64,000 nucleotides of DNA, taken from NCBI RefSeq assembly GCF_011046895.1, contig NZ_CP049249.1:1088501-1152500 (forward strand). The letters are read 5' to 3'. A program made the position numbers and the translations under genes. The notes beneath the pieces are model-generated. The model had not been told where the DNA came from, made no database searches, and saw only the letters and a program-made list of their open reading frames with translations. Below, in pieces: positions 4,092 to 24,187 of this stretch (its first letter is position 1; every line of letters begins with the position of its first letter). This stretch comes from Rhizobium rhizoryzae (GTDB taxonomy: Bacteria > Pseudomonadota > Alphaproteobacteria > Rhizobiales > Rhizobiaceae).

Positions 4092-4178
4092 CAGCGAGGC
4101 GAAGCGGCGAGGCTGGAGGAGCCTGCCGTTTGCGCCAACAGACGACGAAATTTGACATCGCACTCTGGGAGGAGACGC

Positions 4179-5246: not shown

Positions 5247-5381
5247 TCAACGAGATTTGGCCGGGGAAGAGGAGCCCCGTCCAATTCTGGATCATCCGGC
5301 GCATGGTAGCGCGGCATGACCGGCAAGGGGCAGCCGGAATGTGGAACGCGACTTTGTCCCGATAACGGAGGAGGAGTAAAC

Positions 5382-6692
5382 ATGTCGATCAAGAGAAGAA
5401 CATTCCTGGCCGGAACCGCAGGTCTGGCCGGTGCTGCCGGTCTTTCCGGTTTCGGTATCAATCCTGCATTCGCGGCAGAGCCGAAATACACGCCGGAAAA
5501 GGGGGCAAGCCTTCGCCTTCTGCGCTGGACGCCCTTCGTCAAGGGCGATGAAGAGGCCTGGCTGGCAAACACCAAGAAGTTCACGGAAGCGACCGGCGTC
5601 GAAGTGCGTATCGACAAGGAAAGCTGGGAAGACATCCGCCCGAAGGCGGCCGTTGCGGCAAATGTCGGTTCCGGCCCCGATCTCGTGATGTGCTGGTTCG
5701 ACGACGCGCATCAGTACCCTGACAAGCTTCTGGATCTGACAGAGCTCGGCACCTATCTCGACGGCAAGTATGGTGGCTTCTACGATGGCGTGAAGGGCTA
5801 TGCGACGCGCGAAGGCAAGTTCATTGCCATGCCTCTGACGGCCATCGGCAACGCCGTCGTCTATCGCGACAGCCACATGAAGGCGGCGGGCTTCAGCGAA
5901 TTCCCGAAGGATACGAAGGGCTTCCTGGAACTCTGCAAGGCGATGAAGGCCAAGGGCACGCCTGCCGGCTTCCCGCATGGCAAGGCGGTTGGTGATGGCA
6001 ACAACTACGCTCACTGGCTGCTGTGGAGCCATGGCGCCAAGATGGTGGACGAAAGCGGCAAGGTGACGATCAACTCACCGGAAACGCTGGCCGCCATCAA
6101 ATATGCCAAGGAACTCTATTCCACCTTCATTCCGGGCACGGAAAGCTGGCTCGACATCAACAATAACCGTGCCTTCCTGGCCGGTCAGGTGTCGCTCACG
6201 GCAAACGGCGTTTCCATCTACTACGCTGCCAAGAACGATCCGAAGCTGGCGGAAATTGCTGCCGACATGCGCAGCACCAACTTCCCGGTCGGCCCGGTTG
6301 GCAAGAGCATCGAGCTTCACCAGACGAGTTCCCTGCTGCTCTTCAAGCACACCAAGTATCCGGAAGCCGCAAAGGCCTACATCAAGTTCATGATGGAAGC
6401 TGACCAGATGAATGCCTGGATCAAGGGCTCCAGCGCCTATTGCTGCCAGCCGCTGAAGGCGTTCGCCAGCAACCCGGTCTGGACGGAAAACCCGATCCAC
6501 GCGCCCTATGCCAAGGCCTCGGAAACACTGCGTCCGAACGGCTATGCCGGCCCGCTGGGCTACGCTTCGGCTGCCGTGATGGCCGACTATGTTCTGGTCG
6601 ACATGTTCGCCGCCGCCGTGACGGGTGCTTCCACGCCGGAAGATGCCATGGCGCAGGCGGAGAAGCGCGCCAACCGCTACTACCGCGTCTAA
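5382..6692 (+). CDS. extracellular sugar-binding protein, Tat-type signal
   Basis: This 436-residue family-1 solute-binding protein delivers substrate to the permeases downstream. The N-terminus MSIKRRTFLAGTAGLAGAAG is a twin-arginine signal, probably cleaved near AFAA-EP, so it would be exported folded. ATG 5382 lies behind GGAGGAGGAG. The mature part begins ASLRLLRWTPFVKGDEEAWL, typical of CUT1 binding proteins. A stem-loop follows the stop, as often seen between highly expressed binding proteins and weakly expressed permeases. The ligand is unknown; linkage to denD and otn suggests a sugar acid or its precursor. Confidence 0.88.
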   Translation: MSIKRRTFLAGTAGLAGAAGLSGFGINPAFAAEPKYTPEKGASLRLLRWTPFVKGDEEAWLANTKKFTEATGVEVRIDKESWEDIRPKAAVAANVGSGPDLVMCWFDDAHQYPDKLLDLTELGTYLDGKYGGFYDGVKGYATREGKFIAMPLTAIGNAVVYRDSHMKAAGFSEFPKDTKGFLELCKAMKAKGTPAGFPHGKAVGDGNNYAHWLLWSHGAKMVDESGKVTINSPETLAAIKYAKELYSTFIPGTESWLDINNNRAFLAGQVSLTANGVSIYYAAKNDPKLAEIAADMRSTNFPVGPVGKSIELHQTSSLLLFKHTKYPEAAKAYIKFMMEADQMNAWIKGSSAYCCQPLKAFASNPVWTENPIHAPYAKASETLRPNGYAGPLGYASAAVMADYVLVDMFAAAVTGASTPEDAMAQAEKRANRYYRV

Positions 6693-6705
6693 CAGGATGA
6701 TAGCC

Positions 6706-6730
6706 GGAGGGGCGCGCTTGTCGCCCCTCC
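6706..6730 (+). terminator. stem-loop between binding-protein and permease genes
   Basis: GGAGGGGCG (6706-6714) and CGCCCCTCC (6722-6730) form a perfect nine-pair stem with a seven-base loop, followed by GATTTT. The T run is short, so this looks like a partial terminator or a 3' stabiliser that lets the binding protein outnumber the permeases. Confidence 0.6.
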
Positions 6731-6758
6731 GATTTTCAGCGCTTTGGAGTAAACCGTC

Positions 6759-7703
6759 ATGACGATGCCCTCATCGGCCGGTCAGAATGCGCCGCAGCGT
6801 TCGCTCGGTGCCCGTCTCGGCAACAACCGCGATTTTCTCGGCTTTCTTTTCATGCTTCCCGCGGCAGTGTTCCTGCTGTGCTTTCTCACCTATCCGCTTG
6901 GGTTAGGCGTGTGGCTCGGGTTCACCGATACGAAGATCGGCCGGGACGGCATATTTATCGGGCTCGAGAACTATCAGTTCCTCTGGAGCGATAGCGTGTT
7001 CTGGATGTCGGTGTTCAATACCGTCCTCTATACGACGGTTGCCTCCGTCCTGAAATTTGCCCTCGGTCTGTGGTTGGCGCTTTTGTTGAACGAGCACCTG
7101 CCGTTCAAATCCTTTTTCCGCGCCATCGTGCTGCTGCCCTGGGTCGTGCCCACTGTTCTTTCGGCGCTGGCCTTCTGGTGGATCTATGACGCTCAGTTCT
7201 CGATCGTCTCCTGGTCGTTGATGAAAATGGGACTGATCGATGCGCCGATCAACTTCCTGGGCGATCCGACCAATGCACGTGCCTCGGTCATTGCAGCCAA
7301 TGTCTGGCGCGGCATTCCGTTCGTCGCCATCTCGCTGCTTGCCGGCCTGCAGACCATACCAGCATCGCTTCAGGAAGCCGCTTCCCTGGACGGCGCTTCA
7401 AGCTGGCAGCGTTTCCGGCATGTGACCCTGCCGATGCTGACGCCGATCATTGCCGTGGTGATGACCTTCTCGGTGCTGTTCACCTTCACGGATTTCCAGT
7501 TGATCTACGTCCTGACCAAGGGCGGTCCAGTGAATGCCACGCATCTGATGGCAACGCTTTCCTTCCAGCGCGCCATTCCGGGCGGACAGCTGGGCGAGGG
7601 CGCTGCCATTGCGGTTGCCATGGTGCCCTTCCTGCTGGCTGCCATCATGTTTTCCTTCTTCGGCCTGCAGCGACGCAAGTGGCAGCAGGGCGGCGGCGAT
7701 TGA
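6759..7703 (+). CDS. sugar ABC transporter permease (MalF/UgpA type)
   Basis: This is a 314-residue inner-membrane permease with about six membrane segments; the first follows a charged N-terminus (LGFLFMLPAAVFLLCFLTYP). The EAA loop that docks the ATPase is visible as LQEAASLDGASSWQRFRHVTLPML. It pairs with the permease at 7778-8677. A GGAG lies a few bases before ATG 6759. Order and direction put it in the same operon as the ATPase and binding protein. Confidence 0.9.
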   Translation: MTMPSSAGQNAPQRSLGARLGNNRDFLGFLFMLPAAVFLLCFLTYPLGLGVWLGFTDTKIGRDGIFIGLENYQFLWSDSVFWMSVFNTVLYTTVASVLKFALGLWLALLLNEHLPFKSFFRAIVLLPWVVPTVLSALAFWWIYDAQFSIVSWSLMKMGLIDAPINFLGDPTNARASVIAANVWRGIPFVAISLLAGLQTIPASLQEAASLDGASSWQRFRHVTLPMLTPIIAVVMTFSVLFTFTDFQLIYVLTKGGPVNATHLMATLSFQRAIPGGQLGEGAAIAVAMVPFLLAAIMFSFFGLQRRKWQQGGGD

Positions 7704-7777
7704 GAGAGTTTGACGCATTTCCGGATAGGGAACCGGCTCGGTTCTTTCTGCAAATGCTCTGATTGAGGATCTGGTCA

Positions 7778-8677
7778 ATGAATACCAAGGTACAGGCCGC
7801 CGATGGGGCGCTCACCGACGACAGCCAGGGCATGTCCTATCTCAACAGGCTGCCGCGCCGTATCGTTACCATTTATATTCCGATGGCGCTCTTCGTCTTC
7901 GTGCTGCTGTTTCCGTTCTACTGGATGGCGATTACAGCGGTGAAGCCGAATTCGCAGCTGACGGATTATGACAACTACAGCCCGTTCTGGGTGGTCGGCG
8001 CAACACTTGATCACATCAAGTATCTGCTGTTCGAAACCTCCTATCCCGGCTGGCTGTGGAACACGATGGTCGTGGCCTTTGCCTCTACCTTCCTGTCGCT
8101 TCTGGCGTCCGTATTCGGCGCTTACGCGATTGAGCGGATCCGCTTTACCGGATCGCGGTCCATCGGCCTGTTCATCTTCCTGGCCTATCTGGTGCCGCCA
8201 TCCATCCTCTTCATTCCGCTTGCCTTCATCGTCTTCAAGATCGGCATTTATGACTCGCGTCTGGCGCTGATCTTCACCTATCCAACCTTCCTCATTCCTT
8301 TCTGCACCTGGCTGCTGATGGGCTATTTCCGGTCGATTCCGTTCGAACTGGAAGAAAGCGCCTTGGTGGACGGGGCAAGTCGCTGGCAGATCCTCTCCAA
8401 GATCATTCTGCCGCTCGCGGTGCCGGGACTGATTTCGGCAGGCATCTTTGCCTTCACGCTGTCGTGGAACGAGTTCATCTATGCGCTGACCTTTATCCAG
8501 TCTTCTGAAAACAAGACTGTGCCGGTGGGCGTTCTGACCGAACTGGTGCGAGGCGATATCTTCGAATGGGGTTCGCTGATGGCCGGTGCGCTGTTTGGTT
8601 CTCTGCCAGTCGTCATCCTCTACTCGTTCTTCGTGGACTACTACGTTTCGTCGATGACCGGTGCGGTCAAGGAATAA
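7778..8677 (+). CDS. sugar ABC transporter permease (MalG/UgpE type)
   Basis: This 299-residue second permease has about six membrane helices (IPMALFVFVLLFPFYWMAIT first) and an EAA loop, FELEESALVDGASRWQILSK. ATG 7778 was chosen over a TTG fifteen bases upstream because GAGGA sits about eight bases ahead of it. The WNEFIYAL segment is typical of MalG-like partners. The next gene starts three bases after its stop. Confidence 0.88.
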   Translation: MNTKVQAADGALTDDSQGMSYLNRLPRRIVTIYIPMALFVFVLLFPFYWMAITAVKPNSQLTDYDNYSPFWVVGATLDHIKYLLFETSYPGWLWNTMVVAFASTFLSLLASVFGAYAIERIRFTGSRSIGLFIFLAYLVPPSILFIPLAFIVFKIGIYDSRLALIFTYPTFLIPFCTWLLMGYFRSIPFELEESALVDGASRWQILSKIILPLAVPGLISAGIFAFTLSWNEFIYALTFIQSSENKTVPVGVLTELVRGDIFEWGSLMAGALFGSLPVVILYSFFVDYYVSSMTGAVKE

Positions 8678-8680
8678 CAT

Positions 8681-9427
8681 ATGAACAGTTATGATCTTTC
8701 AGGCCAGCACGCTGTCGTGACTGGCGGGGCTCAAGGTTTGGGCTTCGCCATGGCCAAACGCTTCGTGGAATCGGGCGCCAAGGTTACCCTGTGGGACGTG
8801 AACGAAGCACTGCTGTCGGAGGCGGTTTCAGCTCTTGGTGCCAATGCCCGAAGCGTGGCTGTCGATATCACGGACTATCCAGCTGTCGAGGCTGCGCATC
8901 GGGAGAGCGAGGAGAGGCAGGGTCCTGTCTCCATCCTCGTCAATTCGGCAGGCATTGCCGGACCCGCAGCGCCGCTCGATGTCTACGATGTCGAGATGTT
9001 CAAGAAAATCATCGATATCAACGTGCATGGTACATTCCACGTCAACCGCGTCTGTGTGCCAGGAATGAAAGCGCGCAATTACGGACGCATCGTCAACATC
9101 GCTTCCATCGCGGGCAAGGAAGGCAATCCAAATGCGTCCGCCTATTCCGCCTCAAAAGCGGCGGTGATCGGCATGACGAAATCGCTCGGCAAGGAACTGG
9201 CGGGCTTCGATATTGCCGTGAACTGCATTACGCCCGCGACGGCGCAGACGCGCATCCTCGAACAGTTGAGCGACGAATTCATCGAATATATGCGATCGAA
9301 AATTCCGCGTGGTCGCTTCCTGAAGGTAGAAGAGGCGGCTGCCATGGTGACATGGCTGGTTTCCGCCGAGAACAGCTTCACGACGGGTGCGGTGTTCGAT
9401 CTTTCCGGCGGGCGGGCAACTTACTGA
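8681..9427 (+). CDS. SDR-family oxidoreductase
   Basis: This 248-residue classical short-chain dehydrogenase has TGGAQGLG cofactor binding, NSAG, a serine in VNIASIAGKEG and YSASK, and ends in the usual DLSGGRATY. Start ATG 8681 lies three bases after the permease stop, so it is the last gene of this operon. Its general layout resembles sugar and sugar-acid dehydrogenases such as 2-keto-3-deoxy-fuconate dehydrogenases, but no specific substrate can be claimed. It converges with the minus-strand operon, leaving only six bases between stops. Confidence 0.8.
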   Translation: MNSYDLSGQHAVVTGGAQGLGFAMAKRFVESGAKVTLWDVNEALLSEAVSALGANARSVAVDITDYPAVEAAHRESEERQGPVSILVNSAGIAGPAAPLDVYDVEMFKKIIDINVHGTFHVNRVCVPGMKARNYGRIVNIASIAGKEGNPNASAYSASKAAVIGMTKSLGKELAGFDIAVNCITPATAQTRILEQLSDEFIEYMRSKIPRGRFLKVEEAAAMVTWLVSAENSFTTGAVFDLSGGRATY

Positions 9428-9433
9428 CGCCCT

Positions 9434-9949
9434 TCATTCAAGGACATGGCGGTAAACGATCTGCCAGTCCTTGATGGGGATGGATTGAGCCGAAGCTGTG
9501 ACCACAACTTCCGTGAAGCGGATCACTTTGCCGGTCAGGCGGGTACTGAGATCCGCGATCGGTGCCGCTTTCTGCTCTTCGGTCACGCCGTAAGCGAGCG
9601 AAATATGTGGCATGAAGCTTTCCACTTCGCCGCGCTCAAAGGCTTTCACCGCCCGCGTCTTCAGGCCGATAAGAGGACCGGCAGCGTCAAAACCTGCAAA
9701 GAGCGAGCGGAAAAACAGCGGCAAACCGTCGACGCGATTGATCTTCGCCTCAAACGAAGTCTGTCCGGCGAAATGATGGCTCAGCACCGCCGCCAGATCA
9801 TCCCGCGACCGCGGCATGTCTTCCATAAGGGTCAGATGAGGGCAGAATGATTCAGTATCGAAGCGCTCAGACAGATCATCGACGATCGCTTGAAAGAATT
9901 GCAGGTCGTCTGCGGCAGGCATCAGCCAGATCGAGTGCCATTCGCTCAT
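9434..9949 (-). CDS. 2H phosphoesterase, cyclic-phosphodiesterase-like
   Basis: This 171-residue protein carries the two catalytic histidine tetrapeptides of the 2H superfamily: H38-L-T near CPHLTL and H115-I-S in FMPHISLAYG. The spacing, the central VDGLPLFFRSLFAGFD segment and the tail ending in DWQIVYRHVLE resemble plant and yeast cyclic phosphodiesterases, which open 1'',2''- or 2',3'-cyclic phosphates, more than the RNA-ligase branch (LigT). Its start overlaps the stop of the LacI gene by four bases, making it the last gene of an ABC importer operon. A role in opening an imported cyclic phosphate is inferred. Confidence 0.75.
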   Translation of the reverse strand: MSEWHSIWLMPAADDLQFFQAIVDDLSERFDTESFCPHLTLMEDMPRSRDDLAAVLSHHFAGQTSFEAKINRVDGLPLFFRSLFAGFDAAGPLIGLKTRAVKAFERGEVESFMPHISLAYGVTEEQKAAPIADLSTRLTGKVIRFTEVVVTASAQSIPIKDWQIVYRHVLE

Positions 9950-11016
9950 TCGGCTTCGTTTCCTTTTGAAGGTTCTGGTTTTTTCCCGGGCAAGGGTCGG
10001 ACCGTCTCGCGGACGACCAGTGGCAGATCGAGTTGCGAGACGATCGGCGCCGCGGTCGGTTCCTTCAGCCGTTGCTCCAGAACCTGCAAGATCTCCCGCG
10101 CCTGCCGCTCCGCATTCTGCTGGAAGGTGGTCAGCCGGTAGGCGCCCCAGCGGGCCTGCGGTACGTCATCGAGACCGATGACCGACAGATCGGCCGGGAT
10201 CGAGAGCCCCAGCATGTCGCGGGCATAATCCATTAGTCCGAACGCCATGAGGTCGTTGACGCAGAAAACGCCTTCGATCTTGCGTTCCTTGGTCAGAAGC
10301 AGTGATGCTGCCAGCGTTCCACCATCGTAATTGGTTCGCTCGGCCCGCTCTACATGAACTTCGAGTCCGAGGTCCCTTGCCTTGCGCGTGTAAGCCTCTT
10401 CGCGTTCCACAAGGTTGGGGCTGCCAACGGCGGACGTTACAAGGCCGATGCGCCGCATGCCTCGCGCGGCGAAAAGGTCCACCGCCGTTTCTGCTGCCAG
10501 CGCGTTGTTGATGCGGATGTGGTCCGGCCCAACTTCGCTTCGGCCAACGGCGATCAGCGGCTGACCGTTGCGTTGTGCGAGATCGACAAACGCCTTGGAT
10601 GGCATGCCGGAAAGAATGATCGTGGCTTCCGCCCGGTAGCGCAGGAGGGTTGCATGCGAGGCGCGGCCTGCTTCTGTCTGATCGGTTGTGATCAGCACCG
10701 GAACCCTGCCGCTTTCGATCAGGAGGCGCGAAAGGGCAGCGATCTGCTGCGAACGGAACGGCGTTTCCGCATCGGAGGCGATCATACCGATCAATTGGCT
10801 GCGGTTGGCCAGCAGTCCGCGCGCCAGATCATTGACCTGATAGCCAAGCTCTTCAGCTGCCCGGAGCACCTTCTCTCGCGTCGCAGGCGAGACGCTGGCT
10901 CCGTGCGTGAAGGTGCGGGAAACGGCAGAGCGCGAGACACCTGCACGTTGTGCGACTTCATGCGCACTGATGAAGCGCGGCAACTCCATTTCATCTGTGC
11001 CGTTTTTCTCTGCCAT
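9946..11016 (-). CDS. LacI-family transcriptional regulator
   Basis: This 356-residue repressor has an N-terminal helix-turn-helix (SAHEVAQRAGVSRSAVSRTF), a hinge helix near VNDLARGLLANRS, and a periplasmic-binding-protein-like sensor domain. It lies inside the ABC operon: its start shares a base with the stop of the permease gene and its stop overlaps the phosphoesterase start. It is therefore made together with the transporter. It is my preferred candidate to bind the TGCACAGCTGTGCA operators at 15099 and 15996, because the other LacI gene nearby has its own adjacent operator. Confidence 0.85.
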   Translation of the reverse strand: MAEKNGTDEMELPRFISAHEVAQRAGVSRSAVSRTFTHGASVSPATREKVLRAAEELGYQVNDLARGLLANRSQLIGMIASDAETPFRSQQIAALSRLLIESGRVPVLITTDQTEAGRASHATLLRYRAEATIILSGMPSKAFVDLAQRNGQPLIAVGRSEVGPDHIRINNALAAETAVDLFAARGMRRIGLVTSAVGSPNLVEREEAYTRKARDLGLEVHVERAERTNYDGGTLAASLLLTKERKIEGVFCVNDLMAFGLMDYARDMLGLSIPADLSVIGLDDVPQARWGAYRLTTFQQNAERQAREILQVLEQRLKEPTAAPIVSQLDLPLVVRETVRPLPGKKPEPSKGNEAE

Positions 11017-11831
11017 TACCGGCCCACCTTGGAAAGCACATCCGCCCGCAGGAAGCGTTCAATGACCAGCATGAACGCAATCGACGGAATAAGTAGGATG
11101 AGAGCGGTGATAGAAGCAATCTGATAGTTACCGCCGGAGCTTGCCGTATAGAGCAGGAGCGGCAGGGTGGAGATATCCGGCGCGCCCACGAAATAGGTGC
11201 CGGTAAACTCGTCGAGCGATTCCAGAAACACGAAGACGGCGCTGGCGAGAAGGCCGGGTGCCGCAATCGGCAAGGTGACATCCCGAAAAGTACGCATCGC
11301 CGAGGCGCCCATGGAGCGAGCAGCTTCTTCCAACTCGCGGTCGATGGCGGAAAATGCAGCTGTTGCGATCCAAACCGCATAGACCAGCCCGTGGGTGACA
11401 TGCACCAGCACGACGCCGATGACTGTTCCATTCAAACCAAACTGGTAGAAAATACGGGCAATATTTACGTAGACCGGCAGGTTAGGGAAGGCTTGCGGTA
11501 TAAGGAGGATAAGCAGGATAAGACCGCGTAGCGGCAACTTCAGGCGCGCCAGGGCATAACCCGCCGGTATCGCGAGACCGATGGAGAGCACCACGGTCAG
11601 GCTGGCGATGAGAATGCTCATCAACAGGGAGCCCGTTGCGTTACCGCGCGGTGAGAATACGTTCACCCAATAGGAAAATCCGTATTGCAGCGGCAGCGCA
11701 TGGGGGAAATACCACTTCTCTGCGATAGCCCAAAGCAGCAGGTTCGTCAGCGGCCCGAAGATCGCGAAGGCGAGAAGGCCAAGGCCCAGCGCACGCGGTA
11801 TCCACTTCAGATCGATCATGAGCGTTTTCAT
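11016..11831 (-). CDS. ABC transporter permease (PotC-like)
   Basis: This 271-residue inner-membrane permease has about six helices and the EAA loop DRELEEAARSMGASAMRTFRD. It resembles the spermidine/putrescine and iron/2-aminoethylphosphonate group of permeases rather than CUT1 sugar permeases. The start overlaps the upstream permease stop by four bases (ATGA). It works with the permease at 11828-12649, the ATPase at 13994 and the binding protein at 12740. Confidence 0.85.
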   Translation of the reverse strand: MKTLMIDLKWIPRALGLGLLAFAIFGPLTNLLLWAIAEKWYFPHALPLQYGFSYWVNVFSPRGNATGSLLMSILIASLTVVLSIGLAIPAGYALARLKLPLRGLILLILLIPQAFPNLPVYVNIARIFYQFGLNGTVIGVVLVHVTHGLVYAVWIATAAFSAIDRELEEAARSMGASAMRTFRDVTLPIAAPGLLASAVFVFLESLDEFTGTYFVGAPDISTLPLLLYTASSGGNYQIASITALILLIPSIAFMLVIERFLRADVLSKVGR

Positions 11832-12649
11832 CTGTGTTCCCTCATGGTTTGCCGCAGATAGATCCAGGCCACAAGACTGGTGGTGAGCAGCGAGATCACG
11901 CCAAGCGCGTTGGCCACGCCATAATCACCATAGGCATTGATGCGGAAAGCCATGCTTGCGGTTATCATTGTCGGGGACTGTGCGTTGATCATCAACGGTA
12001 CCGAAAGCACCGACATCATCGTGACGAAGCTGAGAATGAGCCCGACCATAAGCGTTGGCAAAACCTGTGGCAGGATGATTTCGATGAGAATTCGCAGGCG
12101 TCCTGCACCCAGATTACGCGCAGACTCGATCATTGAACGATCCAGCGAGGCCATGGCACCCGCCAGCAGCAGCGTGACGAATGGCGTCTGTTTCCAGACG
12201 AAGGCGATCACAATGCCGCGCCAGTCCAGAAAGCTCATGGTTTGCAGTGGTGTCACCAGACCGGTTTCGATCAGCATGCTGTTCATCAGGCCGTTCTTCG
12301 CGAGAAAGGTTCGCAGGATCTGGCCGACCACGATGAAAGGCACGAAAAGCGGCCAGCGATAGAGCCAGCGCAGGATGGCAACAGCCTTCGGATTGGAGCC
12401 CAGCGTCAGGTATCCGCCAATCGCCACAGAGCAGAGGCCGATCAACGCCGCCGAAAGCGAAACGATGACGATCGTGAACAGGATATCGCTGCTGTAAAGC
12501 TCGAAGGCTTTGTAGAAATTGGCGAAGCCGAAGCTCCCGTCCGCGTTGAACGCGCCCGTGACCGAGCTTGCAAGCGGCACGATGAACAGAAGCAACACGA
12601 TGATGAGGGCGGGCGTGACCAGCAGCAGCCCGATCAATGGTAATGGCAT
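11828..12649 (-). CDS. ABC transporter permease (PotB-like)
   Basis: This 273-residue permease begins with a strongly hydrophobic segment (LIGLLLVTPALIIVLLLFIV) and carries an EAA loop, SMIESARNLGAGRLRILIEI. About six membrane helices are expected. A 90-base gap with a perfect hairpin separates it from the binding-protein gene upstream. Translational overlap with the next permease shows they are made as a pair. Confidence 0.85.
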   Translation of the reverse strand: MPLPLIGLLLVTPALIIVLLLFIVPLASSVTGAFNADGSFGFANFYKAFELYSSDILFTIVIVSLSAALIGLCSVAIGGYLTLGSNPKAVAILRWLYRWPLFVPFIVVGQILRTFLAKNGLMNSMLIETGLVTPLQTMSFLDWRGIVIAFVWKQTPFVTLLLAGAMASLDRSMIESARNLGAGRLRILIEIILPQVLPTLMVGLILSFVTMMSVLSVPLMINAQSPTMITASMAFRINAYGDYGVANALGVISLLTTSLVAWIYLRQTMREHR

Positions 12650-12700
12650 GAGGGATCACCCGGCATGGAGAGGTGAGCGAGTTTTGTCGCCTGGAAAAGT

Positions 12701-12728
12701 GAGGATGCGGGACTGAACCCGCATCCTC
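12701..12728 (-). terminator. stem-loop between binding-protein and permease genes
   Basis: GAGGATGCGGG (12701-12711) pairs perfectly with CCCGCATCCTC (12718-12728) around a six-base loop. On the minus strand it follows the binding-protein stop and precedes the permease start; after the stem comes ACTTTTCC, a weak T run. It probably stabilises the upstream message or partly terminates. Confidence 0.6.
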
Positions 12729-12739
12729 CTAAGGATTGG

Positions 12740-13873
12740 TCAGTTTCCGACCTGACGCTCGTAGGCTTCGAGGATCGCCTTGTTATAGGGAGCAATCGGG
12801 AAAGCCTTGCCGTTCTTGGCGAGATCATCCGGGGAAATATCAGTGAAGAGCTTTTCCCAGGTTGCCTTGTCGAGCTTGGCCTGCACGTGCTGCGCATCAA
12901 TGCCCGGATACCAGTTGAAGCGTTCCACGATACCCTTGGCCTGGACTTCCGGGCTGGTGGCAAGGTTGACGAACTTCTCGGCCAGATCCTTGTGCGGGGC
13001 CTTGGCAGGAATGGTGTAATGCATGGGCTGGCCCGGCATGCCCGGCGCAGGCAGCACGAGTTTCATGTCCGGCGGCAACTGGCCCTTGGCCTTCCAGGAA
13101 TAGAACATGTCGACCCAAACCGGACCAATGGCGATTTCGCCACGGCTCAGCATGTCCAGAGTGCCGGCATTACCGGGCGTCAGGGTCGCGTTCGTCGTGA
13201 AATCCTTCAGCTTGTTGAAGGAATCGTTCCATTTTGCAGCCTGTGCCGCATCGAACGGGCCGTTCTGAAGTTTGTCGGCATCGCCGCCGAAAGCGTAGAT
13301 CCAGCCCATGACGAAGCTCACGCCCGATGCGCCGCCCTTGATGCCGTTATAGCCAAACTGCTTGGGGTTCTTCTTGGCCCAGGCAACAAGCTCTTCGTAG
13401 CTCTTTGGCGGATTTGGAACGAGGACGGGGTTATAAGCAAGTGCGGTCTGGCTGTTGAACATCGGCATGACATAGCCGTCAACATTGGTGCCGAGCGCCA
13501 TCTTGGCATTGGCGCGCGTCACAAGAGCACCGCTTTCGATCTTACCACGGTACTTTTCCAGATAGCTCTTTTCGACCATCGGGCCGACGAACTTCTCATG
13601 CACCACGGCAACGTCTGCATCCCATGTCTGTACATTAGCCTGCGCCTGCGCATCGAAACGCTCAAGGATCTTCTGCGAGCCTGCATCGCCGGGGCCGGTT
13701 CCGACAGCGCGAACCTTGACGCCCGGGTTCTGCTTTTCGAACATTGGTCCGAGAAACTCGTTGATGTAATCAACCATGTTCTGGTCACCCGCCGTCATGA
13801 CAGTCAGTTCCTGCGCCATGAGCGGCGAGGTGCTGAGGCCGAGCGCCAGGATTGAATACGCTACTTTCTTCAT
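12740..13873 (-). CDS. periplasmic solute-binding protein of ABC importer
   Basis: This 377-residue binding protein starts MKKVAYSILALGLSTSPLMAQ, a Sec signal peptide with cleavage after MAQ or nearby. ATG at 13873 has GGGAGG upstream on the minus strand; longer in-frame starts would lose the signal peptide. The mature part (ELTVMTAGDQNMVDYINEFL) fits the extracellular solute-binding family 1/8 group used with PotB/PotC-type permeases. The ligand is unknown; the flanking phosphatase and phosphodiesterase point to a phosphate ester. Confidence 0.85.
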   Translation of the reverse strand: MKKVAYSILALGLSTSPLMAQELTVMTAGDQNMVDYINEFLGPMFEKQNPGVKVRAVGTGPGDAGSQKILERFDAQAQANVQTWDADVAVVHEKFVGPMVEKSYLEKYRGKIESGALVTRANAKMALGTNVDGYVMPMFNSQTALAYNPVLVPNPPKSYEELVAWAKKNPKQFGYNGIKGGASGVSFVMGWIYAFGGDADKLQNGPFDAAQAAKWNDSFNKLKDFTTNATLTPGNAGTLDMLSRGEIAIGPVWVDMFYSWKAKGQLPPDMKLVLPAPGMPGQPMHYTIPAKAPHKDLAEKFVNLATSPEVQAKGIVERFNWYPGIDAQHVQAKLDKATWEKLFTDISPDDLAKNGKAFPIAPYNKAILEAYERQVGN

Positions 13874-13946
13874 TGCAACCTCCCTTTGGGGTTTTGTTGT
13901 CCAAGGCAATGCAGGCCCGTTCATGTACGCCGGAGCCCGGGTTGAA

Positions 13947-13984
13947 CGGCGGATAGGCATCCGCCGGTCGGAGCGTTCGCTCCG
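13947..13984 (-). repeat. two adjacent hairpins between ATPase and binding-protein genes
   Basis: CGGCGGAT (13947-13954) pairs with ATCCGCCG (13959-13966), and CGGAGCG (13969-13975) with CGCTCCG (13978-13984). They lie in the 120-base gap between the ATPase stop and the binding-protein start. They may set relative expression of the two genes or stabilise mRNA ends. Confidence 0.4.
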
Positions 13985-13993
13985 TCTTCCCCT

Positions 13994-15073
13994 TCAGTTG
14001 GGGGGAAAGATGTAAAGCCGATCTTCCGGAATGCGCATTTCGACCTCCGCTCCGTCTTCGAAGCGGGTGTGCGAATCCACGATCACGGTACGGTCGCCGA
14101 TATGGATGACATGCCGCCAGATGCCGCCCGGATAGCTGACTTGCTCGACATGTCCGTGAAGCAGAAGGTGAGGCTGCCCGGATGTATGGCTGTGATCCCC
14201 TTTGGCAGAAAGCGTGATGGCCTCGCTGCGGAACCTGGCGATTGCTGCACCCGTGGAAAGCTCTCTGCCGGCTTTCGAAAATGAGGCGGGACCATTGTAG
14301 TGGCCTTCCTTCACATCCACCGCTTCGCCGTGCACCACGATATCGAGATCGATCAGGTTCTCGGCGCCCATGAAGGCTGCAACGAAGGCTGAATTCGGCC
14401 TGTTGTAAACCTCGAGCGGTGAGCCAACCTGCGCGATTTCCCCGGCATTCAGGATGACGATCCTGTCGGCCATCACCATGGCTTCCTCACGATCATGCGT
14501 CACGTGGACGGCTGTGATCCCGAGGCGACGCTGGAGGGCGCTGATCTCGTGGCGAACTGTCAGTCGAATGCGGGCATCAAGGTTGGAAAGCGGTTCATCC
14601 AGCAACAGAATTTCCGGATTGATTGCTAAGGCCCGCCCCAGCGCCACGCGCTGACGCTGTCCCCCGGAAAGCTCTCCCGGCTTGCGATGGCCAAGTGCAT
14701 CAAGGCCCAGAAGCCCCTTCATCTCATCGATGCGTTTTTTCGCGATGCTGGTTTCGGTGCGCCGGAGTTTTAGGCCATAGCCGATGTTCTGGTCCACTGT
14801 CATATGTGGCCAGAGAGCGTAGGACTGGAACACCAGCGCCATGCCCCGCTTGTCAGGCGGAAGGCGGGTGACATCCTTGCCGTCGATGGAAATCGTGCCA
14901 TGCGTTGGCGTGTTGAAACCCGCAACCGTTCGCAGCAATGTTGTTTTGCCGCAGCCCGACGAGCCCAACAGCGCAACGAATTCGCCCTTATTGACGGACA
15001 AATCAACCCCTTTGAGGATCTCTGTCTCGCCATAGCGAACGCGCGTCTGTGATATGTTCAAATAACCGCTCAT
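13994..15073 (-). CDS. ABC transporter ATP-binding protein (PotA/UgpC type)
   Basis: This 359-residue ATPase has Walker A (GSSGCGKTT), Q-loop (VFQSYALWPH), signature (LSGGQRQRVALGRA), Walker B (ILLLDEPLSNLDA) and H-loop (VTHDREEAM), then a TOBE-type C-terminal domain. The start at 15073 has AAGGAGG upstream; a longer frame begins 30 bases earlier without support. A palindromic operator lies 26 bases upstream of the start, so this is the first gene of the transporter operon running down to 9434. Confidence 0.88.
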   Translation of the reverse strand: MSGYLNISQTRVRYGETEILKGVDLSVNKGEFVALLGSSGCGKTTLLRTVAGFNTPTHGTISIDGKDVTRLPPDKRGMALVFQSYALWPHMTVDQNIGYGLKLRRTETSIAKKRIDEMKGLLGLDALGHRKPGELSGGQRQRVALGRALAINPEILLLDEPLSNLDARIRLTVRHEISALQRRLGITAVHVTHDREEAMVMADRIVILNAGEIAQVGSPLEVYNRPNSAFVAAFMGAENLIDLDIVVHGEAVDVKEGHYNGPASFSKAGRELSTGAAIARFRSEAITLSAKGDHSHTSGQPHLLLHGHVEQVSYPGGIWRHVIHIGDRTVIVDSHTRFEDGAEVEMRIPEDRLYIFPPN

Positions 15074-15098
15074 CCGTGCCTCCTTGTCACAGATAATA

Positions 15099-15112
15099 TG
15101 CACAGCTGTGCA
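15099..15112. promoter_or_regulatory. palindromic operator TGCACAGCTGTGCA before the ABC operon
   Basis: A perfect 14-bp palindrome lies in the 108-base gap between the phosphatase stop and the ATPase start. The same core recurs inside a longer perfect palindrome at 15996-16019 in front of the phosphatase gene. The size and symmetry fit a LacI-family operator. It predicts common control of phosphatase and importer. Confidence 0.65.
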
Positions 15113-15181
15113 ACAGTTTTGTGAATGCGCCGCGTAATTAGTGATGTCAGGCGATCCTCCTCGATTGCCCGATATCGGCGG

Positions 15182-15964
15182 CTATCCAGCTTTCAATGCG
15201 ATGCCGGTGGCCCGGCAAACAGCTTCAGCGAGGCGCGGGGTAACCGCCAGAACGGGACCACCGCGCAGGATCTTTTCAGGTCCTTCGAAAGAGCAGACGA
15301 GGCCGCCTGCTTCCTCGACCATCAGCAAGCCAGCAAGACAATCCCATGAGTTCATGTGCGCTTCAGCATAAGCGTCGTTGCGACCATCCGCGACGTAGGC
15401 GATGCCCAGCGCGCCGGAGCCGGCGCGGCGAACGTTGAAGCCCGCATCGATGAGATCTTCAAGCGATGAGAGATAGTCGCTTTTGGCGATTCTCGTGGAC
15501 CAGCCCAGCTCTACCGTCGCAGAACTTGCCTCGGAACGATCGGAAACCCAGATCGAAACGCCGTTGCATGTGGCACCGCGTCCGCGCTGTGCGAAATGGA
15601 GCTCTTTGAGAACCGGATTATAAATCGCGCCGATCTCGGTCACGCCGTCGACCACGTAGGCGATGGCAATACAGAAATGCGGAATGTTACGAGCGAAATT
15701 GGCCGTCCCGTCGATGGGGTCGACGACCCAAAGCTTTTCCCCGGAGGTGCCACCGCTTTCCTCACCGAAAAAGCCATCGTCCGGAAAGGCTTCCAGCAGT
15801 TGTTGCCGAAGGAACTCCTCGCAGCGACCATCTGTTTCGGTCAGATAATCCTGAGGCCCCTTCATCTGCGTCTGTCGCGCCTTGCCGTAACCGGCCAGTG
15901 CAATAGTGCCAGCCTCGACGATGATGCGACGGCAGAAGTCTGCCTTGTGGTCCAAGCTATCCAA
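15182..15964 (-). CDS. inositol-monophosphatase-family phosphatase
   Basis: This roughly 260-residue Mg2+-dependent phosphatase has the family motifs in order: GEESG, WVVDPIDGTANF (metal-binding aspartates) and NSWDCLAG near the C-terminus. It should release phosphate from a small alcohol phosphate such as inositol phosphate, but related members act on other sugars and nucleotides. I place the start at TTG 15964 because GGGAGG lies seven bases upstream. ATG codons at 15994 and 16024 are in frame, but the palindromic operator spans the first residues of the longest version. It sits between a LacI gene and the ABC operon. Confidence 0.8.
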   Translation of the reverse strand: MDSLDHKADFCRRIIVEAGTIALAGYGKARQTQMKGPQDYLTETDGRCEEFLRQQLLEAFPDDGFFGEESGGTSGEKLWVVDPIDGTANFARNIPHFCIAIAYVVDGVTEIGAIYNPVLKELHFAQRGRGATCNGVSIWVSDRSEASSATVELGWSTRIAKSDYLSSLEDLIDAGFNVRRAGSGALGIAYVADGRNDAYAEAHMNSWDCLAGLLMVEEAGGLVCSFEGPEKILRGGPVLAVTPRLAEAVCRATGIALKAG

Positions 15965-15995
15965 GTTTCGCCCTCCCAAGCGTCTCGGCCCCATG

Positions 15996-16019
15996 ATGCT
16001 TGCACAGCTGTGCAAGCAT
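15996..16019. promoter_or_regulatory. 24-bp perfect palindrome, operator of the phosphatase gene
   Basis: ATGCTTGCACAG is followed directly by its exact reverse complement, giving a perfect 24-bp palindrome in the gap between the LacI gene (stop 16050) and the phosphatase start (15964). Its centre TGCACAGCTGTGCA is identical to the site at 15099-15112. LacI-type regulators bind such sites. The likely partner is the LacI protein at 9946-11016. Confidence 0.7.
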
Positions 16020-16049: not shown

Positions 16050-17072
16050 TCATCGCAAGGACGCGGAAAGCGGCTCACTGACGGAGCCCCGAACGATAAG
16101 ATCGGGAATAATCAGATGCTCGGTTGGCTCCTGCTCCGGCGTCTCGAGCATTGTCAGAAGCGATGCCATGGCTTGTTTGCCAATGGCTGAACGGGGCTGG
16201 CGGATGGTTGTCAGCGCCGGCTTGACATAGGTTGCCTGCGGTACATCGTCGAAACCGATGACCGAAAACTCCCTTGGAATGTCATAGCCGCGCGCCGCCA
16301 GGCCATTCATCACGCCCAGCGCCGTGGCATCGTTCACGCACATGAACGCGGTAGGCAGAGTGTCTCGCATGAAAAGCTGCTCGACTCCCAGTCGTCCGCT
16401 TTCGATTGTGCCATCGCCATCCAGAACCAGTCGGTTTTCCGGCGCAATGCGTGCCGCGTTCATCGCATCGTCAAAGCCCTGGCGGCGGCGCTGCTGGCCA
16501 AGGCGGGTCTTGCTGTCGCCAATGAAGGCAATGCGGCGGTGTCCAGCGGAAAGCAGATGTTCCGCAGCTTTGCGACCGCCTGCCTTGTCGTCCACACCAA
16601 CATAGGGGATCTTGCTGTCAAAAACCGGCTCGAAAACGGCGACTGAAGGCGGCAGTCGCTCCGCAAGTGCCTGATGACCAAACGGCTGGTGACCGGTAAA
16701 GAGCACAAGTCCCGCGGCCTGCCCGGAACTGACGAACTTCAGATACTCCAGCCCTCTTTCCGCATCGTTCTGGGTATGCCCGATGAGCACGCCATATCCG
16801 CTGGCTCTTGCCTCGTTTTCCAGTCCGATCAGGATCGAGGAGAAATTCGGATCGGCAATATCTGGCGCCAGCACCAGGATCATATTCGAGCGGCCCATTC
16901 GAAGCGACCGCGCCATGGCGTTTGTCGTGTAGCCGGTGATCGCAATAGCCTGGTTCACGCGCTGGCGGGTCGTCTTGGCAACTTTCTCCGGGGTGTGAAT
17001 GGCCCGGCTGACCGTCGCGATGGAAACATCCGCAAGCCGGGCGACATCCTCGATTGTTGCCGGATTGCTCAT
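16050..17072 (-). CDS. LacI-family transcriptional regulator
   Basis: This 340-residue repressor begins MSNPATIEDVARLADVSIATVSRAI, the canonical LacI helix-turn-helix, with a hinge around TTNAMARSLRMGRS and a ribose-binding-protein-like sensor domain. It is transcribed divergently from the CUT2 sugar ABC operon starting at 17246. The 173-base gap between them contains a double operator of LacI type (17167-17205). It most likely represses that operon and itself until the sugar binds. The phosphatase gene downstream is separated by its own operator. Confidence 0.88.
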   Translation of the reverse strand: MSNPATIEDVARLADVSIATVSRAIHTPEKVAKTTRQRVNQAIAITGYTTNAMARSLRMGRSNMILVLAPDIADPNFSSILIGLENEARASGYGVLIGHTQNDAERGLEYLKFVSSGQAAGLVLFTGHQPFGHQALAERLPPSVAVFEPVFDSKIPYVGVDDKAGGRKAAEHLLSAGHRRIAFIGDSKTRLGQQRRRQGFDDAMNAARIAPENRLVLDGDGTIESGRLGVEQLFMRDTLPTAFMCVNDATALGVMNGLAARGYDIPREFSVIGFDDVPQATYVKPALTTIRQPRSAIGKQAMASLLTMLETPEQEPTEHLIIPDLIVRGSVSEPLSASLR

Positions 17073-17166
17073 CGTTGCGGTACCCCATCACGCGTTAAAG
17101 CTCGACGTTACAGGTCTGTTCGCAAATGCGAAATGCTGAGATAGGTGAAATCCCCTGATATTGTGC

Positions 17167-17205
17167 GATGTAAACCTTTACATGATCGATGTAAAGGTTT
17201 ACATC
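17167..17205. promoter_or_regulatory. double LacI-type operator, nested palindrome
   Basis: Two 14-bp sites, TGTAAACCTTTACA (17169-17182) and TGTAAAGGTTTACA (17190-17203), lie 21 bp apart, two helical turns. Each is palindromic apart from its central CC or GG, and together they form one larger inverted repeat with 17-base arms around GATCG. They sit between the divergent LacI gene and the sugar ABC operon, about 40 bases before the ATPase start. Confidence 0.75.
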
Positions 17206-17245
17206 ATGGGTATATTAGCAGTTGAGGAGCTGCTGGGAGGGATGA

Positions 17246-18769
17246 ATGGCGGTTCTGGGCGAGGGGTCGCAGCCTGTTGTGCTGGCGGCTGAACGAGTCT
17301 CAAAATCCTTCGGGGAAATACAAGTTCTTTTCAGCGTCGACTTCGATGTCAGGCGCGGCGAGGTTCATGCCCTCATGGGTGAGAATGGCGCCGGCAAATC
17401 GACTCTTGTGAAGATTCTTTCCGGCTTCGAGCAGCCCACCTCCGGCAAGATCCTGCTGGACGGGCAACCGGTCGCCTTGCCTGCAAATGGCTCGGCCGAA
17501 TCGCTCGGCATTGTTCTGATCCATCAGGAATTCAATCTCGCGGAACATTTGACGGTCTCGGAAAGTCTTTTCCTCGGGCGAGAGGTCACGCGCTTTGGTG
17601 TCTTGAACAAGGCGTTCATGCGCGAGCGCACCCGCCATTATCTGGACCAGCTTGGTACCCGCATTCACGAAGATGCGCTGATTGGATCGCTTTCAGTGGC
17701 GGAAAAGCAGATGGTCGAGATTGCCAAGGCAATTTCGCGCGACGCTCGCGTCATTTTCATGGATGAGCCGACCGCTGTCCTCTCGCGAGAAGAGACCGGC
17801 CTATTGTTTGAGCAGGTGCGCCGTCTTCGCGCTGAGGGAACGAGTTTCGTTTTCGTGTCGCACAAGCTTGAAGAGGTCATGGAATTGACCGACCGGGTCA
17901 CCGTCCTCCGGGATGGGCAATGGGTAAAAACCGCACCAACCAAGCTGCTGGATGGCGAGGCCATTGCGCAACTGATGGTTGGCCGCGAGCTCTCAACGCT
18001 TTACCCGGCAAAGCATGAACCCGATGTCGACGAAGAGGTTGTGCTTTCGGTGCAAGGCTTGACCACCGGCTATGTCAAGGACGCCAGCTTCGATCTGCGA
18101 AGGGGGGAAATTCTCGGCTTTTCGGGCCTGATCGGCTCTGGTCGAACGGAACTCATGGAGGCGGTTGCCGGTCTTCGCAGCCGCCAGTCCGGCACCGTGG
18201 AAATACATGGCCAAGCCATGGCGTCGTCGGACTTCCGGGCCGCCAATGCTGCAGGCCTCGCCTACATGACCAAGGATCGCAAGGGCCACGGGCTTCTCCT
18301 TGGTGAAAGCATGGCCGTGAACCTGACGCTGCAATCGCTCGATCGCCATGTGAAGGGTGGCTATCTGGATCCGGTCAGCGAAAGCAAGGCGCTCGTCCGT
18401 GCAAAGCGCCGCTTCGATATCCGTGTGCGCGACGAGAATGTCCGCGTCGGCCGCATGTCGGGCGGCAACCAGCAGAAGTTGTTGCTCGCCAAGATCATGG
18501 AGGTCGAGCCGAAAATCATCATCATCGATGAGCCAACGCGCGGCATTGACGTCGGCACCAAGCAACAGATTTACCACTTCATTGCGGCGCTCGCCCGCGA
18601 AGGTCGCTCCATCATCGTCATTTCCTCGGAAATGCCGGAGGTGATCGGGCTCTGTACGCGCGTCGCGGTCATGCGCGAGGGGCGTATCGTCGGCATGCTC
18701 GAAGGAGAAGACGTCTCCGAGCAGATGATCATGCGCTATGCGGCCGGCTTGCGTCGGCAGGCAGGTTGA
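17246..18769 (+). CDS. sugar ABC transporter ATP-binding protein (RbsA type)
   Basis: This 507-residue protein has two tandem nucleotide-binding domains, as in ribose and xylose importers of the CUT2 family. The first has Walker A GENGAGKST and Walker B VIFMDEPTAV. The second has a reduced Walker A region (GLIGSGRTE) but a good signature (MSGGNQQKLLLAK) and IIIDEPTRGID. GGGAGG precedes ATG 17246. It is first in a three-gene operon with a permease and a binding protein, controlled by the divergent LacI regulator. The sugar is not identifiable. Confidence 0.92.
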   Translation: MAVLGEGSQPVVLAAERVSKSFGEIQVLFSVDFDVRRGEVHALMGENGAGKSTLVKILSGFEQPTSGKILLDGQPVALPANGSAESLGIVLIHQEFNLAEHLTVSESLFLGREVTRFGVLNKAFMRERTRHYLDQLGTRIHEDALIGSLSVAEKQMVEIAKAISRDARVIFMDEPTAVLSREETGLLFEQVRRLRAEGTSFVFVSHKLEEVMELTDRVTVLRDGQWVKTAPTKLLDGEAIAQLMVGRELSTLYPAKHEPDVDEEVVLSVQGLTTGYVKDASFDLRRGEILGFSGLIGSGRTELMEAVAGLRSRQSGTVEIHGQAMASSDFRAANAAGLAYMTKDRKGHGLLLGESMAVNLTLQSLDRHVKGGYLDPVSESKALVRAKRRFDIRVRDENVRVGRMSGGNQQKLLLAKIMEVEPKIIIIDEPTRGIDVGTKQQIYHFIAALAREGRSIIVISSEMPEVIGLCTRVAVMREGRIVGMLEGEDVSEQMIMRYAAGLRRQAG

Positions 18770-18828
18770 AGTGGGTAGCAGCCAGCAATTGAGGGCCCGG
18801 CAGAGGTCCGTCGGGAGGAGTGGGGATT

Positions 18829-19839
18829 ATGTCGGTCGAAGCTGAAGGGCAGTCGGGTGCCCGTCGTCAAAGAGCATGGCGTGATATCGATCTGAGGGCG
18901 GTCGCGCCCTTTGCAGCGCTGCTGTTGCTGCTCATCATCGGTGCCCTGGTGAACCCGAACTTCATCGGCCTCACCAATCTGGCAAATGTTGCGACACGCT
19001 CAGCCTTCATTGCCATTATCGCGGTTGGCGCTACGTTCGTCATCTCTGCCGGGGACCTTGATCTCTCGGTTGGATCCATGGTCGCTTTCGTTGCCAGCCT
19101 CATGATCCTGTTCATGAATTCAGGAGCTATAGCTGATCCGGGCTTGATGATTGCCGCGGCGGTGGCGCTTGCCATCGTCATCGGATCGCTATGTGGCCTG
19201 GCAAACGGGCTCATTACGACGGTCGGAAAAATCGAACCGTTCATCGCGACCCTCGGAACCATGGGCATCTATCGCGGTCTCACGACCTGGCTGAGCCAAG
19301 GTGGCGCCATCACGCTGCGGTCGGCGGAACAGCAATCCATCTACCGTCCAGTCTATTTCGGCTCCATTCTCGGCGTGCCGGTCCCGATCCTCGTCATTCT
19401 ATTGGTCACGGTCATCGCAGCTTTCATCCTGTATCGAACGCGCTATGGCCGCCATGTGACGGCTGTAGGTTCAAGCCGGGATGTGGCGCGTTATTCCGGT
19501 ATCGCGGTGGATCGGGTGCGCACCATAGCTTTCATCATCCAGGGGCTTTGCGTCGCGATTGCCGTGCTTCTCTATGTTCCGCGTCTCGGGTCCACATCGG
19601 CCACAACCGGCATCCTGTGGGAACTCCAGGCCATCACCGCGGTCGTGGTCGGCGGTACGGCGCTCAAGGGCGGTGCGGGTCGCGTCTGGGGCACAATTTG
19701 CGGGGCCTTCATTCTCGAGCTGGTCGGCAACATCATGCTGCTGTCGAATTTCATTTCGGAATATCTGATCGGCGCCATACAGGGCACCATCATCATCGTC
19801 GCCATGCTGGTTCAGCGGTCGCTGGCCCGCAAGGGATAG
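18829..19839 (+). CDS. sugar ABC transporter permease (RbsC type)
   Basis: This 336-residue inner-membrane permease of the CUT2 family has eight to ten hydrophobic segments and the conserved ISAGDLDLSVGSMVAF region plus the VVVGGTALKGGAGRVWGT segment. ATG 18829 is preceded by GGGAGGAG at a good distance; a GTG nine bases upstream overlaps that site. It forms the channel for the importer with the flanking ATPase and binding protein. Confidence 0.9.
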   Translation: MSVEAEGQSGARRQRAWRDIDLRAVAPFAALLLLLIIGALVNPNFIGLTNLANVATRSAFIAIIAVGATFVISAGDLDLSVGSMVAFVASLMILFMNSGAIADPGLMIAAAVALAIVIGSLCGLANGLITTVGKIEPFIATLGTMGIYRGLTTWLSQGGAITLRSAEQQSIYRPVYFGSILGVPVPILVILLVTVIAAFILYRTRYGRHVTAVGSSRDVARYSGIAVDRVRTIAFIIQGLCVAIAVLLYVPRLGSTSATTGILWELQAITAVVVGGTALKGGAGRVWGTICGAFILELVGNIMLLSNFISEYLIGAIQGTIIIVAMLVQRSLARKG

Positions 19840-19923
19840 ACATAACCACACGCTTGCCTGGCCGGATCAGGGGTCGTCCGGATGAGGTGACAGAAGACCC
19901 CATCACCATCTTGGGAGGAAGAG

Positions 19924-20893: not shown

Positions 20894-20920
20894 GTCCCGC
20901 TCCTCAGGGTGCGGGGCTTT
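20894..20920. terminator. probable terminator between sugar ABC operon and oxyR
   Basis: GTCCCGC (20894-20900) pairs with GCGGGGC (20911-20917), allowing a G-T pair, and is followed by TTT. It lies in the 48-base gap between convergent genes. The T run is short, so termination may be partial. Confidence 0.4.
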
Positions 20921-21843: not shown

Positions 21844-21851
21844 AACCTCAG

Positions 21852-21886
21852 CATATCGAACCGTTAGGAATATACAATTGGAAACT
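21852..21886. promoter_or_regulatory. candidate OxyR-binding region between oxyR and katG
   Basis: The 166-base divergent region contains spaced AT-rich elements (ATAT, AATATA, CTAT) with helical-turn spacing loosely like the OxyR pattern of four short blocks. The match is weak and by eye only; placement comes mainly from the divergent gene order. Confidence 0.3.
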
Positions 21887-21979
21887 ATGGAACTCGTCTG
21901 CTAGGCCTCTGCCGTGATGAATTGAAACGAAGAACAAGTTATTTTCACACTGCATTGATATCACCTGCCAGTTTACTGA

Positions 21980-24187
<2,208 letters not shown>

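Follow-up and report, generated by a model that had tools for sequence, protein, structure and literature searches.

Glycerophosphodiesters are taken up in the Ugp/UgpQ system by an ATP-binding cassette (ABC) importer and cut by a cytoplasmic phosphodiesterase; the system is Pho-regulated and is known with enzymes of the glycerophosphodiester phosphodiesterase (GDPD) type only. The agrocinopine importer AccBCDE is of the Opp type, and the repressor AccR is not known to belong to the LacI family. As described in the cited part of PMC4526662, the Acc system of Agrobacterium tumefaciens C58 (AccA-AccBCDE, AccF, AccG and AccR) brings in agrocinopine by ABC import; the phosphodiesterase AccF yields arabinose-2-phosphate, the effector of the repressor AccR, and AccG is a putative phosphatase. 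In Xanthomonas, according to the cited part of PMC12807533, XanT/XanP serves uptake of a macrocyclic sugar phosphodiester and its hydrolysis for nutrition by a 2H enzyme with HxT/HxS motifs. We analysed a stretch of 64,000 nt from Rhizobium rhizoryzae (assembly GCF_011046895.1, contig NZ_CP049249.1, positions 1,088,501 to 1,152,500; ‘the window’ below), where an ABC importer operon with genes for a LacI-family regulator and a 2H phosphoesterase at its end lies next to a gene of the inositol monophosphatase (IMPase) family. Comparison of this locus with its relatives makes it quite probable that the genes encode a repressor-controlled system for uptake and breakdown of a small phosphodiester.

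As judged by gene set and by the cited part of the Acc description, the logic is the same in both systems: a whole-diester ABC importer, a cytoplasmic phosphodiesterase, a phosphatase and a repressor in one locus. All four predicted parts were found together here, which argues for a system that works like Acc, not for membership in Acc; the differences are the LacI-family regulator and the 2H cutting enzyme. The likeness to XanT/XanP, also drawn from description, lies in uptake of a phosphodiester (there a macrocyclic sugar ester, here a predicted cargo) that a 2H enzyme then hydrolyses, whereas the cited part of PMC12807533 gives a predicted outer-membrane TonB-dependent transporter and a ROK-family regulator in place of the ABC importer and LacI seen here, and mentions neither an ABC importer nor an IMPase in that cluster. 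The locus shares with Ugp/UgpQ the broad importer class and a cytoplasmic phosphodiesterase and differs by LacI in the operon and by exchangeable enzymes. The original prediction held that no importer of this make-up had been described; we found no description of this gene set in the one open-access library searched, but its logic has the precedents Acc and XanT/XanP. The kind of system is already known, and the importer, regulator and exchangeable enzyme set form a variant of it. The features of the locus are as follows.

9434..9949, minus strand: 2H phosphoesterase of the CPDase (cyclic phosphodiesterase) family (PF07823), 171 amino acids, final gene of the operon (Pfam, PDB relative, motifs).
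9946..11016, minus strand: LacI-family regulator within the operon (Pfam LacI and Peripla_BP_3).
11016..11831, minus strand: ABC permease 2, PotC/PhnV-like (BPD_transp_1; NCBIfam resemblance under the cut-offs).
11828..12649, minus strand: ABC permease 1, PotB/PhnU-like (BPD_transp_1; resemblance under the cut-offs).
12740..13873, minus strand: solute-binding protein (SBP) with a signal-like N terminus (SBP_bac_8/SBP_bac_1; start at 13873 or 13960).
13994..15073, minus strand: ABC ATPase, PotA/UgpC/PhnT2-like (ABC_tran; PhnT2 is the best NCBIfam model).
15099..15112, no strand: putative LacI operator, first copy (TGCACAGCTGTGCA), upstream of the ATPase operon (exact palindrome).
15182..15964, minus strand: IMPase-family phosphatase (Inositol_P; start TTG at 15964 or ATG at 15994).
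16001..16014, no strand: putative LacI operator, second copy (TGCACAGCTGTGCA), upstream of the IMPase gene (exact palindrome).

The minus-strand order of transcription is the IMPase-family gene (15182-15964), then the operon ATPase, SBP, permease, permease, LacI and 2H enzyme (15073 to 9434); open reading frames (ORFs) and Pfam matches confirmed the gene positions and strands claimed originally for the importer operon and for the LacI, 2H and IMPase genes. Since the LacI and 2H genes share an ATGA overlap, and there is overlap at the permease/permease and permease/LacI junctions as well, the set from ATPase to 2H enzyme is likely to be a single transcript. The translations, inspected by eye, have a signal-like start on the SBP and none apparent on the 2H and IMPase proteins, so that the cutting step would be intracellular. 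The GC content of the region is 0.58, against 0.59 in the window.

Orthologues of the SBP (E up to 1e-60) were detected in 19 of 199 genomes of the family, 36 of 397 of the order and 6 of 398 of the phylum, with the window's genome included each time; together these are 56 distinct genomes. We compared 63 loci, those of the 56 genomes and seven from named records (L009 and L119-L124); plasmid records with matches numbered 17, of which seven were examined and six counted. Left out of the counts were L125 (Klebsiella strain 176, whose SBP match extends over 59% of the query) and L010 (no importer). Neighbourhoods were read with the seed proteins, with Pfam for selected genes; genes of the relatives were called mechanically and most neighbours were compared only with the seeds, so other or broken enzymes could escape.

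A phosphodiesterase is encoded within ∼5 kb of the SBP gene in 41 of the 56 genomes, and these enzymes have four unrelated folds: 2H (15 genomes, in four of which the gene is on the opposite strand), metallophosphoesterase of SpdA/GpdQ-like type (23), metallo-β-lactamase (MBL) fold (one) and GDPD (two). For instance, the enzyme at the importer is 2H in Rhizobium FKY42 and SSA_523, a metallophosphoesterase in Phyllobacterium (L122) and an MBL enzyme annotated as ribonuclease Z in Azospirillum; Klebsiella and the Escherichia coli plasmid pEGY2 have an MBL enzyme with the same annotation together with IMPase and LacI relatives. On the SBP tree of the 63 loci the enzyme type changes at least seven times if loci without a diesterase are excluded and at least 13 times if they are included; this was a quick tree with support by the Shimodaira–Hasegawa-like approximate likelihood ratio test only, several open forks and long branches. 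What is encoded next to the importer differs between loci, yet in most it is a phosphoesterase. Because relatives keep the importer but swap unrelated phosphodiesterases, the cargo is probably a phosphodiester.

Another, unrelated importer of the window, with a UgpE-like permease at 7763-8677, served as control. Among 20 of its 48 loci, taken in genomes of the same family, none had a relative of the phosphoesterase seeds within ∼8 kb, and five had LacI relatives near. When 249 genomes of the order were searched with PF07823 (E up to 1e-4), five matched, all five at the importer studied here; the sensitivity of this model is incomplete, and some 2H genes detected with the seeds may have escaped it or not have been drawn in this sample. 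Within the family, 2H relatives are present in seven of 199 genomes (eight copies) and the importer in 19 of 199, with six genomes in common (P 2e-6); in all six, the window's included, the 2H and importer genes adjoin. Two 2H copies are away from the importer, one in G026 and one the second copy of G131. The latter (L016, 8651-14525) forms a 2H and IMPase gene pair divergent from a different SBP_bac_8 importer; it repeats the association of 2H enzyme, IMPase and importer with another binding protein.

The perfect palindrome TGCACAGCTGTGCA is identical at its two copies, one per transcription unit. In the original prediction the IMPase gene and the importer operon were placed under one and the same operator; in fact, each has its own copy (16001-16014 and 15099-15112), identical in sequence. 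With up to two mismatches the window holds two sites against 0.36 expected, and two or more sites occurred in 4 of 100 shuffles; the 16-bp form, again with up to two mismatches, has four sites in the whole genome, each with zero or one mismatch. Of 62 loci in relatives, 44 have the 16-bp site (up to two mismatches) within the 1 kb that precedes the ATPase start; the number expected from mononucleotide shuffles is 0.02. The 18 loci without the site belong to parts of the tree other than the main SBP group, and LacI relatives seen there are more distant. A site with at most one mismatch is present in 25 of the 32 importer genomes scanned (32 of the 56), mostly at the importer alone, and the regulon is probably local. 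Most relatives have a LacI relative in the importer cluster; from position and conservation we infer that this LacI protein is the binder of the palindrome.

In the window's genome two additional sites, each with one mismatch, were found besides the importer locus, one between mechanically called convergent ORFs (L054) and the other (L055, 5283) between a flavin adenine dinucleotide (FAD)-oxidase gene and genes for NUDIX and PHO4 phosphate-transporter proteins; we claim no regulation there. In G388, G063, G033 and G131, which also have extra sites, nothing related to the phosphoesterase seeds is encoded within ∼4 kb of them. The extra sites give no clue to the substrate.

Gene order, catalytic motifs, the conserved palindrome and enzyme swapping, all seen in the sequences, suggest the following course of transport, chemistry and regulation. 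The SBP would capture the diester in the periplasm and the permease/ATPase complex would carry it in intact. The cytoplasmic 2H enzyme would break one P-O bond to give a phosphomonoester, from which the IMPase-family enzyme, in lineages having it, would free phosphate. The LacI protein may repress both units at the palindrome and be released, presumably, by the substrate or by a sugar-like product. As an inference, intact import of a phosphodiester with internal cutting, followed in some lineages by dephosphorylation, is well supported; the originally proposed import and intracellular hydrolysis draw strong comparative support from enzyme replacement at the orthologous importer and from the location there of the 2H gene in all genomes that matched PF07823. 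Dephosphorylation by IMPase, also proposed originally, would apply to some lineages only: IMPase is optional, because its gene is near the importer in only 17 of 63 loci. Co-occurrence of the parts in other genomes was seen for importer and 2H enzyme, which recur together, while the exact trio with IMPase occurs in six of 63 loci (the window, L009, L011, L085, L086 and L124).

Several points weigh against this reading. By the seeds used, 15 of the 56 genomes have no phosphodiesterase within ∼5 kb (G018, G108, G037, G001, G388, G505, G341, G367, G242, G281, G267, G424, G518, G474 and G501); in G018 a metallophosphoesterase gene is 8.5 kb away, and in G267 and G424 only IMPase was seen, at 6.8 kb. 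In Chelatococcus the seeds detected no diesterase, and an MBL-fold hydrolase of unknown kind is encoded ∼4 kb downstream on the other strand. The IMPase counts include just those 17 loci within ∼5 kb, with the two at 6.8 kb in addition. The Fisher test values for comparison with the control (3e-9 for 41/56 vs 0/20; 1.5e-7 for the family only, 15/19) come from a single type of control importer and from related genomes that are not independent. G026, which has no such importer, carries a CPDase-family gene (48.5 bits), a counterexample to the occurrence of these enzymes at this importer only; the gene (L017, 1957-9551) adjoins a shikimate kinase gene, and an SBP_bac_6 importer with a two-domain permease follows further along the same strand. 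The SBP has no close match among solved structures in either single-sequence or profile search. Finally, predicted structures of the SBP and the 2H enzyme, made from two-sequence alignments, were unusable (mean predicted local distance difference test scores of 40.2 and 36.3).

The Pfam CPDase match (PF07823) of the 2H enzyme has 37.5 bits with a cut-off of 21, and both motifs pointed out originally are present, H38-L-T40 and H115-I-S117, invariant in all 17 aligned 2H proteins of importer clusters. With the single sequence, its only solved relative is the cyclic phosphodiesterase 1fsi, presumably from Arabidopsis (E 5e-8); a 17-sequence profile confirms the match (E 2e-22). Assignment to the RNA 2′,3′-cyclic phosphodiesterase equivalog (TIGR02258) was rejected at 22.1 bits against a cut-off of 65.7. 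The IMPase-family protein matches Inositol_P at 193.8 bits (cut-off 27), shows GEES, DPIDGT and WD in its translation, the last two of which we take to be metal-binding motifs, and has IMPase/SuhB as nearest solved proteins; it falls under every equivalog cut-off (IMPase 147.7 vs 332, HisN 142.2 vs 275.15 and CysQ 91.5 vs 228.8 bits).

For the ATPase the top NCBIfam model is PhnT2 (355.1 bits, cut-off 457.7), with UgpC at 335.1 bits against 432, and the permeases are far under the cut-offs of the PotB, PotC and PhnU/V models. The SBP, both permeases and the ATPase are similar to components of importers for polyamines, aminoethylphosphonate and glycerophosphate, all below cut-offs; the description of the permeases as ‘PotB/C-like’ is good as resemblance, not as identity. 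A polyamine or 2-aminoethylphosphonate importer was rejected as the ATPase, permeases and SBP are all under the cut-offs of the Pot and Phn equivalogs. The SBP has a conserved stretch, GTGPGDAGSQK (24-sequence alignment), and is distantly MalE-like; its profile search returned only remote binding proteins of sugar, polyamine and γ-aminobutyric acid (GABA)-sensor type, without a ligand clue, and the PDB matches listed for it include none named as binding agrocinopine.

As to the chemical class of the cargo, the original prediction of a cyclic phosphodiester is favoured by enzyme kinships. Besides the relation of the 2H proteins to 1fsi, the metallophosphoesterase of L043 scores 252.9 bits with the SpdA model (under the cut-off of 400) and is 44% identical to the Sinorhizobium meliloti protein encoded beside cyaD1 and a Crp-family regulator gene, which was taken as SpdA. 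The metallophosphoesterases found in place of the 2H enzyme are thus kin, under the model's cut-off, of a 2′,3′-cyclic nucleotide phosphodiesterase; the cited part of PMC4222275 reports that SpdA hydrolyses 2′,3′-cyclic nucleoside monophosphates with little or no activity on the 3′,5′ forms. The stretch of S. meliloti DNA viewed has no gene annotated as part of an ABC importer. Among PDB entries, Apyc1 is the best match to the Klebsiella MBL enzyme. PhnP is an MBL enzyme, too. In carbon–phosphorus (C-P) lyase operons, according to the cited part of PMC3840354, a 2H protein replaces PhnP, and its role on 5-phosphoribosyl 1,2-cyclic phosphate is that paper's inference; the exchange is of the same type as at the importer. 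In those operons the ring is made inside the cell, whereas no C-P lyase gene is present among the annotated neighbours of the importer (a minority of all neighbours). These four points, 1fsi, SpdA, Apyc1 and the 2H-for-PhnP exchange, were counted for the ring.

On the other side, SpdA acts on 2′,3′-cyclic AMP slowly and with low affinity (Km 3.7 mM; cited part of PMC4222275). For the MBL enzyme, the RNase Z model gives a better score (75.3 bits, cut-off 252) than the cyclic-nucleotide model does (45.3 bits, cut-off 400), and XanP, although a 2H enzyme, cuts a macrocycle rather than a five-membered ring (cited part of PMC12807533). GDPD, typical of linear glycerophosphodiesters, substitutes in two loci (L118, and L045 with PhoD and HAD). 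On balance, within the proposed phosphodiester system, the likeliest single class of cargo appears to be cyclic phosphodiesters (for example inositol 1,2-cyclic phosphate, cyclic phosphates of sugars or glycerol, or 2′,3′-cyclic nucleotides), with a chance that we put slightly short of even. More tentatively still, the importer family could be dedicated to cyclic phosphates with a five-membered ring, which 2H, SpdA-like and MBL enzymes would open interchangeably.

The best surviving alternative, though we hold it somewhat unlikely, is a linear glycerophosphodiester (e.g. glycerophosphoinositol or the headgroup of a different deacylated phospholipid) that is split in the cell to give a monoester, with cyclic phosphates as side substrates at most. 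Import followed by cytoplasmic cutting is the logic of Ugp/UgpQ, and both loci with GDPD fit it; the L043 metallophosphoesterase also matches 2dxl/2zo9 (E 5e-27, 98.3 bits), which we take to be GpdQ, and GpdQ kinship of the metallophosphoesterases counts toward linear or other esters. However, the same enzyme reaches 252.9 bits with the SpdA model against the 98.3 of GpdQ (a model against a single sequence, not strictly comparable), the solved relative of the 2H proteins is a cyclic phosphodiesterase, and GDPD is the rarest replacement, in two of the 47 loci having a diesterase.

An agrocinopine- or xanthosan-type sugar phosphodiester from plants or microbes, opened to a sugar phosphate that IMPase dephosphorylates and LacI senses, is unlikely but has parallels. 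XanP cuts macrocyclic xanthosan to galactose 1-phosphate (cited part of PMC12807533; likened by description), agrocinopine is imported whole and its AccF product is sensed by AccR (cited part of PMC4526662), carbohydrates are most of the assigned effectors of LacI-family proteins (PMC4052901), and the distant MalE likeness of the SBP points the same way. No sugar-catabolic gene recurs, however, among the annotated neighbours (a minority of all neighbours), and the importer also occurs outside plant-associated groups, e.g. in Klebsiella.

Poorer still is the case for a phosphomonoester cargo with phosphodiesterases serving an unrelated internal compound. AfuABC imports hexose phosphates, IMPase-family monoesterases are near the importer in the 17 loci counted above, and G267 and G424 have IMPase at 6.8 kb and no phosphodiesterase; yet in 41 of 56 genomes the importer is accompanied by a diesterase, with four unrelated folds recurring among them, and monoesterases are optional, which makes this explanation quite improbable. 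Least credible of all is a phosphate-free solute with phosphoesterases as chance neighbours, for which speak the likeness of permease and ATPase to polyamine importers and the 15 genomes without a near diesterase, and against which stand the gene overlaps, the conserved palindrome and the two results on which a chance neighbourhood was rejected, the control (0/20) and PF07823 (five matching genomes of 249, all at the importer).

Some further loci and neighbours are of separate interest. In G047, of the window's genus, genes for GDPD, a PhoD-like protein and HAD lie upstream of the importer (L045, 10255-14422), replacing those for 2H and IMPase. The pEGY2 plasmid is conjugative and carries importer, MBL enzyme and IMPase genes with an IS1 transposase gene nearby (L120, 3137-11169); its SBP gene was detected by megablast in one of 5426 complete E. 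coli genomes. Rhizobium lemnae (L010, 7898-9096) retains the LacI gene (94% identity) and a 2H match to the last 32 residues only, with no relative of the importer or IMPase in the stretch; this is apparently a deleted cluster. In the window, a separate plus-strand UgpC-type importer cluster (4152-9427), the last gene of which encodes a short-chain dehydrogenase, meets the 2H gene tail to tail. On its upstream side the IMPase gene borders directly on a second LacI gene, which is CytR-like (below cut-off) and divergent from a ribose-type sugar ABC importer (16050-20871); beyond are an OxyR-like regulator gene with a divergent catalase-peroxidase (KatG) gene (20920-24187) and a tartrate dehydrogenase gene (26282-27358; TIGR02089, above cut-off).

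That unrelated phosphodiesterases have replaced one another repeatedly next to a single importer is a genomic hint at function of unusual clarity, and it gives a conserved importer family a testable class of cargo. If the cargo is cyclic, the question arises whether cyclic phosphates are a source of organic phosphorus and carbon in soil and on plants; cyclic esters from phospholipase C action or RNA decay would then be nutrients shared among soil organisms.

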